Shown here piece by piece: positions 22,737 through 27,269 of a DNA stretch of 64,000 nt. Within the stretch, counting starts at the first letter, position 1. The number at the start of each line of letters is the position of its first letter. Made by a program: the position numbers and the translations under genes. The notes below the pieces were generated by a model. That model did not search any database and was not told where the DNA came from. It saw nothing but the letters and a program-made list of their open reading frames with translations. Source of the DNA: Acidobacteriota bacterium (GTDB taxonomy: Bacteria > Acidobacteriota > Vicinamibacteria > Marinacidobacterales > Marinacidobacteraceae); assembly GCA_022828085.1 (NCBI GenBank), contig JAJEIY010000036.1, positions 1 through 64,000 on the forward strand. The letters are read 5' to 3'.

Positions 22737-23936
22737 ATGAACCCTGTTCACCCGCTGTCAAGACGGCGGTTTCTCGGCGCCGTTCCGGTGGCCGCCGGCG
22801 CGAGCGCGCTGGCTCTCGAGCGCGCCGCCGGACAGGGCGGGGGCGCCGTCTTCGGAAAGAGCGGCCTGCGAATCCTGAGCGAGCGGCCGGTGAACGCCGA
22901 GACCCTGGTTGCCGATCTCGATCCCCGCTATACGCCCAACGACAAGCACTTCGTCCGAAACAACGGCGGCCTGCCGGAGCGGGCACTTTCCGGAAGCCTC
23001 GAGGGCTGGTCGCTCCGCGTCGACGGCGAGGTGGGAAACCCCCTCAATCTCTCGCTCGACGATCTCAGGACGCGCTTCGAGAACGTGAGCCGAGCCCTGG
23101 TGCTCGAGTGTGCGGGAAACGGGAGAGCGGCCTTCCAGCCGGGGGCGTCGGGCAACCAGTGGTGGCTCGGCGCGGTCGGCTGCGCGCGCTACACCGGCGT
23201 CCGGCTCCGCGACGTGCTGAGTGCGGCCGGCGTGCTCGACACGGCCGTTTACGTCGCCTACTACGGCGAGGATCCGCACCTGAGCGGGAACCCCGAAGAA
23301 GTCCCGATTTCCCGCGGTGTCCCGCTGTCCAAGGCCCTGGACGAGTCCACTCTCCTCGCCTGGGACATGAATGGCGAACCCCTTCCTCCGCACCACGGCT
23401 TTCCGCTTCGGATCGTCGCCCCGGGATTCCCCGCCTCGGCGAGCGGGAAGTGGCTTAGCCGCCTCTGGGTCCGGGACCAGGTCCACGACGGCCCCAAGAT
23501 GACCGGCTACTCCTATCGAGTGCCGCGATACCCGGTCGCGCCCGGAACCGACGTGCCCGAGGAAGACATGGAGATCATCGGCCCCATGCCGGTGAAGTCC
23601 ATCATCACCCGCCCCGAGACGGGCGTCCGTCACGCCGGCGGGGGGCCGCTCGCGATCCGGGGCTGGGCGTGGGCCGGTGACGGGCCCGTGAACGCGGTGG
23701 ACCTCAGCGCCGACTTCGGGACCACCTGGCTCCCGTGTCAGCTCGAGGAGCCCGAGAACCCGTTCGCGTGGCAGCGCTTCGAAGGCTCCGTCGCCTTCGA
23801 CATTCCGGGTCACTACGAACTCTGGGCGCGGGCGACGGACCACCAGGGACGCCAGCAGCCCATGGTCGTGCCCGGCTGGAACCCGCGCGGCTACCTGAAC
23901 AACGCGATGCACCGGATCGCGGTCACGGCTCTCTGA
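22737..23936 (+). CDS. Molybdopterin-dependent sulfite oxidase/dehydrogenase (SorA/SoxC-like)
   Basis: Tat-like SRRRFLG; ALVLECAGNGRAAFQPGASGNQWWLGAVGCARYTGVRLRDVL; Mo-co dimerisation domain with GWAWAGDGPVNAVDLSADFGTTW. Confidence 0.9.
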   Translation: MNPVHPLSRRRFLGAVPVAAGASALALERAAGQGGGAVFGKSGLRILSERPVNAETLVADLDPRYTPNDKHFVRNNGGLPERALSGSLEGWSLRVDGEVGNPLNLSLDDLRTRFENVSRALVLECAGNGRAAFQPGASGNQWWLGAVGCARYTGVRLRDVLSAAGVLDTAVYVAYYGEDPHLSGNPEEVPISRGVPLSKALDESTLLAWDMNGEPLPPHHGFPLRIVAPGFPASASGKWLSRLWVRDQVHDGPKMTGYSYRVPRYPVAPGTDVPEEDMEIIGPMPVKSIITRPETGVRHAGGGPLAIRGWAWAGDGPVNAVDLSADFGTTWLPCQLEEPENPFAWQRFEGSVAFDIPGHYELWARATDHQGRQQPMVVPGWNPRGYLNNAMHRIAVTAL

Positions 23937-23937
23937 G

Positions 23938-24342
23938 ATGAAACGCCTGCACCTGGTTCTGGCTGTCGCCCTGCTCCCGGTGGCCGCCTCCGCGGGCCCG
24001 GAGGAACGCGCCATCCCCACGCTTGCCGCCGGGCAGGAGAGCGACGGCCGGGCCCTCATCGACGAGAACTGCCTCTACTGCCACGACGACAGCTACATCC
24101 GGTCGTTGAACCTCCCCCGTGAAGAATGGGAAGGGGTGCTCGACATGATGATCGGGATGGGCATGCCGCCGCTGGAGCCGGAAACCCAGGAGAAGATCCT
24201 GGACTACCTCGAGGAAGAGCACGGCCCCCGGGAGAGTTCCCCGTCACCCGGCGCCGGGACGTCAGCGGACGCGCAAATGGAGGACCTCCCCTGGGCGTTT
24301 CCGCGCTACCGGCCAAACCCCCTGTACTGGCGGGAGCCCTAG
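23938..24342 (+). CDS. Monoheme cytochrome c (SorB-like electron acceptor)
   Basis: Signal peptide; ENCLYCHDDSYIRSLNLPREEWEGVLDMMIGMGMPPLEPETQEKILDYLEEEHG; 1 bp downstream of the sulfite oxidase. Confidence 0.8.
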   Translation: MKRLHLVLAVALLPVAASAGPEERAIPTLAAGQESDGRALIDENCLYCHDDSYIRSLNLPREEWEGVLDMMIGMGMPPLEPETQEKILDYLEEEHGPRESSPSPGAGTSADAQMEDLPWAFPRYRPNPLYWREP

Positions 24343-24565: not shown

Positions 24566-25156
24566 CTACCTCAGCGGGATGTCGGTGAACTCGTGTTCGT
24601 AGATCGCCTCGCGGATCTCTTCGGGACTCGCGCCGTCCTCATGCATTTCCTTGGCCAGGAGGACCTCCTGGAGACAGGTGCTTCAAGTGGCGGCGTGGTT
24701 GTCCACGTAGCAGTCGAGGAGGCTTCCGTGATCCTCCGACGCCCCGTGGCAGCCGCAAAGACACGGCAGCTGGACGAGAACTTCGGGGATTTCCTTGGCG
24801 ATGGCGTAGGTCGTCTGCAGCGTCTCGTTCTCGTAGGTGTTCGGGGGGAGCGTCACCGGGAAGGGACGCGCCTCCTCCACCGAGTCGTAGTAGGGAAACG
24901 GCTTGGCCGCCTGGTTCCCCAGGTCGTACGCGGCGGCGGACAGGTCCGAGGCCGGCTGCGGGCCGCTCTCCACCGTCGTGTCCTCGAAGGCGGCGACGAA
25001 GAAAACGGCGGCCCCCACCACGAGCAGGCCGACCGCGAGGATCGGTGCGGCGCCCCATTTGCCGCGGGTCGGCGGCGGTTGAGCGGCCCCGGGGGAAGGC
25101 GGGGTCTTTCCGGTTGCTGCAGCTCCCCGGGATCGGGGCGTTCGGCGCTTCTTCAT
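24566..25156 (-). CDS. Probable selenoprotein: PCYCGC-type Cys-rich membrane-anchored protein with in-frame TGA (Sec) at 24683-24685
   Basis: ORF to the TGA ends ...VQLPCLCGCHGASEDHGSLLDCYVDNHAAT. Read-through continues U-STCLQEVLLAKEMHEDGASPEEIREAIYEHEFTDIPLR to TAG at 24566-24568. The Sec occupies the first position of a CxxC-like pair, and a SECIS-like hairpin follows. Confidence 0.75.
24655..24671 (-). promoter_or_regulatory. Candidate bacterial SECIS hairpin for UGA recoding
   Basis: Transcript CCAGGAG-GUC-CUCCUGG: 7-bp perfect stem with GU in the apical loop, 19-20 nt after the UGA. Confidence 0.68.
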
Positions 25157-25184: not shown

Positions 25185-27269
25185 ATGCCCCGCCGACTCT
25201 GGCTCTCCGGCGCCGCGGTCTTCCTCGCGGCGGCGCTCCTGTTCGTGGTGCAGCCCCTCGCCGCGCGCAGCCTGCTTCCCTGGTACGGCGGAGCCCCGAT
25301 GGTGTGGGCGGTCGCGCTCTTCTTCTTCCAGGCGGTGCTGCTCGGGGGATACCTCTACGCGCACCTGCTGGTGACGCGCCTCGCCCCGCGCGTCCAGCTG
25401 GCGGTCCACGGCGTCCTCCTCGTCCTCGCCGCGCTGGCCAGCCTGCCGCCGCTCCCCGGAACCGGCTGGGCGCCGGACGGCGGGGAAGCGCCCGCCGGGT
25501 GGATCCTTCTCACCCTCCTGGTCACCGTCGGGCCGGCCTTCTTCGCCCTGGCGGCCACCACGCCGCTGGTGTCCGCGTGGGTGGCCCGCGCGGGCCGCTC
25601 AACGGCCGACAGCCCGGCGGCGACCGGCGTTTACCGGCTGTACGCCCTCTCCAATGCCGGGTCGCTGATCGGCCTCGCGGCGTATCCGCTGCTGCTCGAG
25701 CCTCTCCTCGGGCTGGGCGCCCAGGGACGCCTGTGGTCGGCGGGGTTCGTGGCCTTCGCCGCACTGACCTTCCTGGCCGGAGTGTTCTCCGTGCGGGCTT
25801 CCGCCGGGATTGCGGACCGCGCGGCCGCGCCGGCCCGGTCCGGGCTCGGTGATTTCCACGTGTCGGCCTTCCTGCTGGCCGCGGTCGGCTCGTTGGCGCT
25901 GGTGGCGGTCACGACCCATCTCACCCGCGACGTGGCGGCGGTTCCGTTCCTGTGGATCGCCCCCCTGGCGCTGTACCTGCTCACCTTCATCCTCGCGTTC
26001 CGGGGCGGAGATCCGTATCCGAGACGGCTTCTCGTGCCGCTGCTGCTGGCTTCGGTGGCGGCGTGCTTCTACGTCTGGTTCCAGGACATCACCTACGGCC
26101 TCGAGCGCGCCCTGCTCGCCCACGCGGTAGCGGCGCTCGGGTTCCTGTTCATCGGCTGCTGGATCACCCACGGGGAGATCGTCCGGCGGAAGCCCGCCCC
26201 GTCGCGCCTCACCGGTTTCTACCTGTCCATGACGGCCGGCGGCGCTCTCGGGGGGCTCCTCGCGTCCATCGGCAGTCCGCTGCTCTTCCCGAATGTCTGG
26301 GAGTATCCGCTCGCGCTGGTGCTCGCCGTGGTGGTCGCCTTCATGGTCGCCACGCCGTCCCGGGGGGCGGTCCGATCGTTTGCCCGGAAGGCCATTCCCG
26401 CGGCCACCCTCGGAATCGCCATCGCCGTCAGCGCGCTCGAACACCGCCGCCCGCTGACCGCAACCCGGAACTTCTTCGGAGTCGTGCGCGTGATGGAGGC
26501 CTACCCGGGCACTCCGGACTGGCGGCGCGACATGTGGCACGGGGGCATCGCGCACGGCTCCCAGTGGTTCGCTCCCGGACGCCGCCGCGAGCCCACCCTC
26601 TACTACTACGAAGGGACGGGGATCGAGGCGGTGCTGAACCGGCATCCCAACCGGCGGCTGGTGCGGCCCCTCCGGGTCGCCGTCGTCGGGCTCGGGACCG
26701 GGTCCATCGTCGTCCACGGGCGTCGCGGGGACCTGTTCCGCTTCTACGAGCTCGACCCCCAGGTGGCGCAGGCGGCGCGCGACTACTTCACGTTCCTCGC
26801 CGATGCGCCCGCGGAGGTGGAAGTCGTGCTGGGTGACGGCCGGCTGAGCCTGCTCCGGGAAGCGAGCGCCGGAGAGGCCGAATTCGACGTGATCGTGCTC
26901 GACGCCTTCGCCGGCGACGCGATCCCAGTCCATCTGCTCACCGCCGAAGCGTTCGATCTCTACCGGAGCCGGCTCGCCCCGGGCGGCACGATCGCGGTCC
27001 ACATCTCGAACCGCCACGTGGACCTCGCCCCGGTGATCCGCGCCCAGGGCCTCCGCCTGGACCTGCTGTCGCTGCTCACGGTGAGCGATCCGGACCCCGA
27101 CCTGTTCCACTACACGGCGACCTGGGTGGTGCTCAGCCTGAACACGGACCTCATCACGGACCCGAGCCTGCTCGGGAGGGCGGAGCCCTGGACGGGTGAA
27201 GCCGCCGAGCCGGGCGACCGGTTCCTGTGGACGGACGACCATTCCAACCTGCTCGACGTGCTGCGTTAG
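25185..27269 (+). CDS. Fused MFS-like / spermidine synthase-like protein
   Basis: Multi-TM N-half (LFVVQPLAARSLLPWYGGAPMVWAVALFFFQAVLLGGYLYAHLL); SAM-binding C-half (VAVVGLGTGSIVVHG..FYELDPQVAQAARDYF..FDVIVLDAFAGDAIPVHLLT). Confidence 0.88.
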   Translation: MPRRLWLSGAAVFLAAALLFVVQPLAARSLLPWYGGAPMVWAVALFFFQAVLLGGYLYAHLLVTRLAPRVQLAVHGVLLVLAALASLPPLPGTGWAPDGGEAPAGWILLTLLVTVGPAFFALAATTPLVSAWVARAGRSTADSPAATGVYRLYALSNAGSLIGLAAYPLLLEPLLGLGAQGRLWSAGFVAFAALTFLAGVFSVRASAGIADRAAAPARSGLGDFHVSAFLLAAVGSLALVAVTTHLTRDVAAVPFLWIAPLALYLLTFILAFRGGDPYPRRLLVPLLLASVAACFYVWFQDITYGLERALLAHAVAALGFLFIGCWITHGEIVRRKPAPSRLTGFYLSMTAGGALGGLLASIGSPLLFPNVWEYPLALVLAVVVAFMVATPSRGAVRSFARKAIPAATLGIAIAVSALEHRRPLTATRNFFGVVRVMEAYPGTPDWRRDMWHGGIAHGSQWFAPGRRREPTLYYYEGTGIEAVLNRHPNRRLVRPLRVAVVGLGTGSIVVHGRRGDLFRFYELDPQVAQAARDYFTFLADAPAEVEVVLGDGRLSLLREASAGEAEFDVIVLDAFAGDAIPVHLLTAEAFDLYRSRLAPGGTIAVHISNRHVDLAPVIRAQGLRLDLLSLLTVSDPDPDLFHYTATWVVLSLNTDLITDPSLLGRAEPWTGEAAEPGDRFLWTDDHSNLLDVLR

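Follow-up and report, generated by a model that had tools for sequence, protein, structure and literature searches.

The in-frame UGA at positions 24685-24683 on the minus strand of the window, which is the whole 64,000-nucleotide stretch of acidobacterial DNA that was analysed, very probably encodes selenocysteine (Sec) in a protein of the CYCXC (OS_HP4) family. The read-through gene occupies positions 24566–25156 of the minus strand, as delimited by translation and by its scores against the family models NF041379 and PF13798. Its frame opens with ATG 25156, reaches the TGA as codon 158, and continues as STCLQEVLLAKEMHEDGASPEEIREAIYEHEFTDIPLR to TAG 24568-24566. Translation through the TGA would give a 196-residue product whose residue 158 is Sec, and an in-frame ATG at 25186, upstream of ATG 25156, is a possible alternative start. 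The TGA (24683–24685, minus strand) is the first position of a U-x-x-C motif. The C-terminal extension past it (24566–24682, minus strand) contains the partner cysteine of the motif, residue 161, together with a conserved helix. Standard ORF calling ends at the TGA, as the original prediction of a probable selenoprotein had said it would, and a gene model that treats the TGA as a stop lacks the C-terminal extension. The frame, the position of the TGA, the tail, and the TAG stop given in that prediction agree exactly with the sequence and its translation. The prediction as a whole is supported by the selenocysteine machinery of the host, by the conservation of the TGA, tail, and hairpin, and by the existence of homologues with cysteine.

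The window gene is a new and well-supported example of a family that is already catalogued and was first reported in 2007, and it is not a discovery in itself. With cysteine written at residue 158, the protein scores 100.3 bits against the NCBIfam model NF041379, 'OS_HP4_CYCXC family (seleno)protein', which has a cut-off of 90; the raw genome sequence with one TGA inside also exceeds the cut-off, at 97.3 bits. Two reviews (PMC9312934 and PMC13188914) include OS_HP4 among the bacterial selenoproteins and give it a UxxC motif; the second names it CYCXC and assigns it to PF13798. For OS_HP4, PMC9312934 cites Zhang and Gladyshev 2007 (Nucleic Acids Res., doi 10.1093/nar/gkm514), a paper on a deltaproteobacterial symbiont of Olavius algarvensis, a gutless worm. 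The window protein resembles OS_HP4 in passing the curated cut-off and in possessing the UxxC and CxCxC motifs, and its Sec column is that of relatives titled Deltaproteobacteria. However, its host belongs to an acidobacterial lineage known from metagenome-assembled genomes, its cysteine cluster reads CLCGC where many relatives have CYCXC, and its hairpin sequence is specific to its own family-level clade. The protein also matches the PCYCGC domain of Pfam (PF13798, 44.9 bits, cut-off 25). A described PCYCGC member from Bacillales is a lipoprotein (PMC13068155), whereas the window protein has a probable transmembrane anchor and a Sec that replaces one cysteine.

The host possesses the complete machinery for selenocysteine insertion. 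In its 3.57-Mb assembly (G000), which is 91% complete, a search for the four components named in the original prediction, selA, selB, selC, and selD, found all of them: SelA (496.4 bits), SelB including its C-terminal part (316.6 bits), SelD (251.5 bits), and a tRNA-Sec with the anticodon TCA (69.7 bits). The alpha subunit of formate dehydrogenase is a common user of Sec, and no match to it (TIGR01591) was found in the host assembly. In established bacterial selenocysteine insertion, SelB binds a hairpin of the mRNA and delivers Sec-tRNA at the UGA. By this route, the SelA, SelB, SelC, and SelD of the host would decode the UGA of the window gene as Sec under the direction of the hairpin that follows it, which would result in the 196-residue CYCXC (OS_HP4) protein. 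Reading through the UGA could in principle occur without Sec, by near-cognate misreading as tryptophan or cysteine or by a wider reassignment of the codon. This is very improbable in a host that has a tRNA-Sec, SelA, SelB, and SelD; moreover, the TGA column is otherwise cysteine in every aligned relative, and in several homologues TGA serves as the ordinary stop at the end of the gene.

The gene family was found in 82 of 149 related genomes, 33 of which have the TGA form and 49 of which do not. Among 70 aligned sequences, all 33 TGA forms have their TGA in a single column, and this column is cysteine in 37 of 37 Cys forms. The codon aligned with 24683-24685 is either TGA or TGC/TGT, and the TGA sits at a cysteine position, as had been proposed. 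The gene was found in nine members of the family-level clade, the window included, and in every one of them the TGA, the tail, and the hairpin are the same. The tail is conserved in both TGA and Cys homologues, so that homologues ending at this position without it, which had been named in advance as evidence against Sec, did not occur. In a scan of species genomes, the closest named relatives were metagenome-assembled genomes of Acidobacteria. Among the more distant relatives, which were read by tblastn, genomes titled Deltaproteobacteria, Methylomirabilota, Nitrospinae, and Tectomicrobia also have TGA at the Sec column, and others have cysteine there.

These comparisons bear on two further explanations of the TGA. 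The first is that it is an ordinary stop, with a 157-residue product and a downstream frame that is a decaying remnant. Standard ORF calling agrees with such a stop, and hairpins of this kind are not rare in the GC-rich DNA of the window. However, the protein sequence of the tail is conserved within the genus, the family, and beyond, the cysteine form substitutes at exactly the TGA codon elsewhere, and the host has the complete Sec machinery. Nine assemblies also share the TGA, although 34 of the 63 degenerate codons whose amino acid is invariant differ in spelling among the same nine sequences. The conservation data effectively contradict an ordinary stop, which has very little probability left. 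The second explanation is an error of sequencing or assembly that turned TGC or TGT into TGA, an idea to which the cysteine homologues known at the order level lend some plausibility. It is negligibly probable, given that the same TGA is present in nine genomes from three genera and that many independent genomes from other groups have TGA at this column too. Because the nine assemblies agree, TGC or TGT in the reads of the host is very unlikely. The reading of the UGA as Sec is strongly supported because of the homologue comparison together with the host machinery, and not because of the hairpin alone; taken together, the comparative evidence lies far beyond chance.

The presence of SelA follows the form of the gene: it was found in 32 of the 33 genomes with TGA and in 31 of the 49 others (one-sided Fisher p = 2e-4, a statistic that ignores kinship). 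The only TGA-form genome without a SelA match (G088, locus L070) is a fragmented assembly, and its tRNA-Sec match is weak (50 bits) and possibly false. One genome of the same genus as the host (G007) has SelA and tRNA-Sec and no detectable CYCXC gene, which reflects either loss or an assembly gap.

The SECIS-like hairpin CCAGGAG-GUC-CUCCUGG is located at positions 24655–24671 of the minus strand and was identified by SECIS rules, fold, and conservation. It is a perfect 7-bp stem with the loop GUC 18 nucleotides after the UGA, which places GU at +19/+20, as originally described, and it forms the core of a predicted fold of -16.2 kcal/mol over 48 nucleotides. Published rules for bacterial SECIS elements (PMC13188914) call for a loop of 3–9 nucleotides, a stem of 4–16 bp, a distance from the UGA of 16–37 nucleotides, a G among the first two loop positions, and a minimum free energy of -7.5 kcal/mol or lower. 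A SECIS check had been proposed in the original prediction; run against these rules, it placed the hairpin within all four published constraints (loop 3 nucleotides, stem 7 bp, distance 18 nucleotides, G first, -9.9 kcal/mol). A search of Rfam returned no family and only two sub-threshold chance matches.

The hairpin by itself is weak evidence. When codons for the same peptide were redrawn at the frequencies seen in four genes of the window, 10% of draws had an early GU in the loop of a stem 7 bp long or longer, 8% had an energy as low, and 2.7% had both the length and the energy. The z-score of the fold against dinucleotide shuffles is -1.5, and of all TGA triplets in the window, 15% satisfy the SECIS rules and 6.7% do so equally strongly. 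The earlier argument that chance can hardly account for the hairpin therefore does not hold for the hairpin alone, since one in ten resampled draws has a stem as long.

By contrast, the signal of the hairpin is clear when homologues are compared. The hairpin is identical base for base in 9 of 9 members of the family-level clade of the window. Codons +4 to +9, which make up nearly the whole hairpin, are invariant in the nine sequences, compared with 41% of the other amino-acid-invariant degenerate codons, a comparison that includes several close relatives and is not a formal probability. The SECIS rules are satisfied by 22 of 33 TGA-form genes and by 2 of 36 Cys-form genes, in a count of uninterrupted stems only, which misses real elements whose stems have bulges. 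Other members of the class have a different hairpin, in a second SECIS register with GU at +23/24. In this register, 22 of 23 Sec genes spell the five VARDA codons GTCGCGCGTGACGCG, a spelling present in none of the 9 Cys genes that encode the same peptide.

Parsimony on a poorly resolved tree requires at least eight changes between Sec and Cys. It is conceivable, at somewhat less than even probability, that Cys and Sec have switched repeatedly in the class and that the family-level clade of the window gained Sec independently with a SECIS register of its own (+19/20 as opposed to +23/24). Cysteine orthologues L024 and L028 belong to two genomes of the sister family (G011 and G012) that still have SelA and tRNA-Sec, so that loss of the Sec system does not explain their cysteine. 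A copy (L100:5001-5570) that is 88% identical to the window protein and shares its TGA, hairpin, and synteny lies on a 362-kb contig titled Dehalococcoidia, which is probably a mislabelled or mis-binned acidobacterial contig.

The gene order around the window gene is kept across the genus. It recurs with lower identity around the sister family's cysteine orthologue (L102), an agreement that supports the view that the Sec and Cys forms are orthologous. Downstream of the selenoprotein gene and convergent with it are two plus-strand genes. The first, at 22737–23936, encodes a SorA/SoxC-like molybdopterin protein of the sulfite dehydrogenase type that exceeds the cut-offs of PF00174 and PF03404 and scores 215 bits against NF052245, below the cut-off of 600. 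The second, at 23938–24342, encodes a putative SorB-like c-type cytochrome (NF052246, 26.1 bits, below the cut-off of 93), for which a Pfam search gave no match. Upstream, a fused MFS/spermidine synthase-like protein (NF037959, 64.2 bits, cut-off 40) is encoded divergently on the plus strand at 25185–27269. The SorA/SorB-like pair (22737-24342) lies well below the curated cut-offs for SorA and SorB and is conserved as far as the sister family; it is possibly a distinct subgroup. The gene has different neighbours in other lineages; none of those sampled showed the sulfite dehydrogenase-like genes close to it, and a functional link to these genes, which was considered, is therefore not used as evidence of function. 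At two Desulfobacterota loci, the gene adjoins CcmH (L114) and an AhpC/TSA-thioredoxin-like gene (L133), and these redox neighbours count in favour of a role in redox or metal chemistry.

The translation contains a probable N-terminal transmembrane anchor at approximately residues 35–53 (about 24998–25054, minus strand), and the protein is probably held in the membrane by this single helix and faces the periplasm. A structure predicted by AlphaFold has a full-length pLDDT of 65 and is confident only for the C-terminal domain, roughly from residue 101; in the model, a small helical domain follows the N-terminal helix. Neither a solved relative by sequence in the PDB nor a fold match for the structure model was found. 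U158 stands in an H-x3-U-x-x-C pair, and the C-x-C-x-C motif, the downstream cysteine, and the U/C-x-x-C motif are invariant in a 14-member alignment, whose invariant residues include C132, C134, C136, H143, C149, H154, C/U158, and C161. This conserved series of CxCxC, His, Cys, His, and UxxC behind a probable membrane anchor suggests a redox or metal role, and the chances are about even that the protein functions in the envelope as a thiol/selenol redox or metal-binding protein. U158 and C161 may form a selenenylsulfide redox pair; alternatively, they may build a metal or redox site together with C-x-C-x-C, C149, and the two histidines. In either arrangement, the site could serve thiol or cytochrome chemistry of the envelope.

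With the UGA recognised as a Sec codon, a gene model that had been cut short is put right, and a catalogued selenoprotein family gains acidobacterial members. The aspect most worth following is evolutionary, namely that one class shows repeated exchange of Sec and Cys and two registers of the hairpin. Its many closely related Sec/Cys pairs could be used to test directly what Sec contributes to the protein and how SECIS elements originate within a coding sequence. If the Sec of the window clade was gained independently, the family would be a natural series of independent SECIS origins within one coding region.
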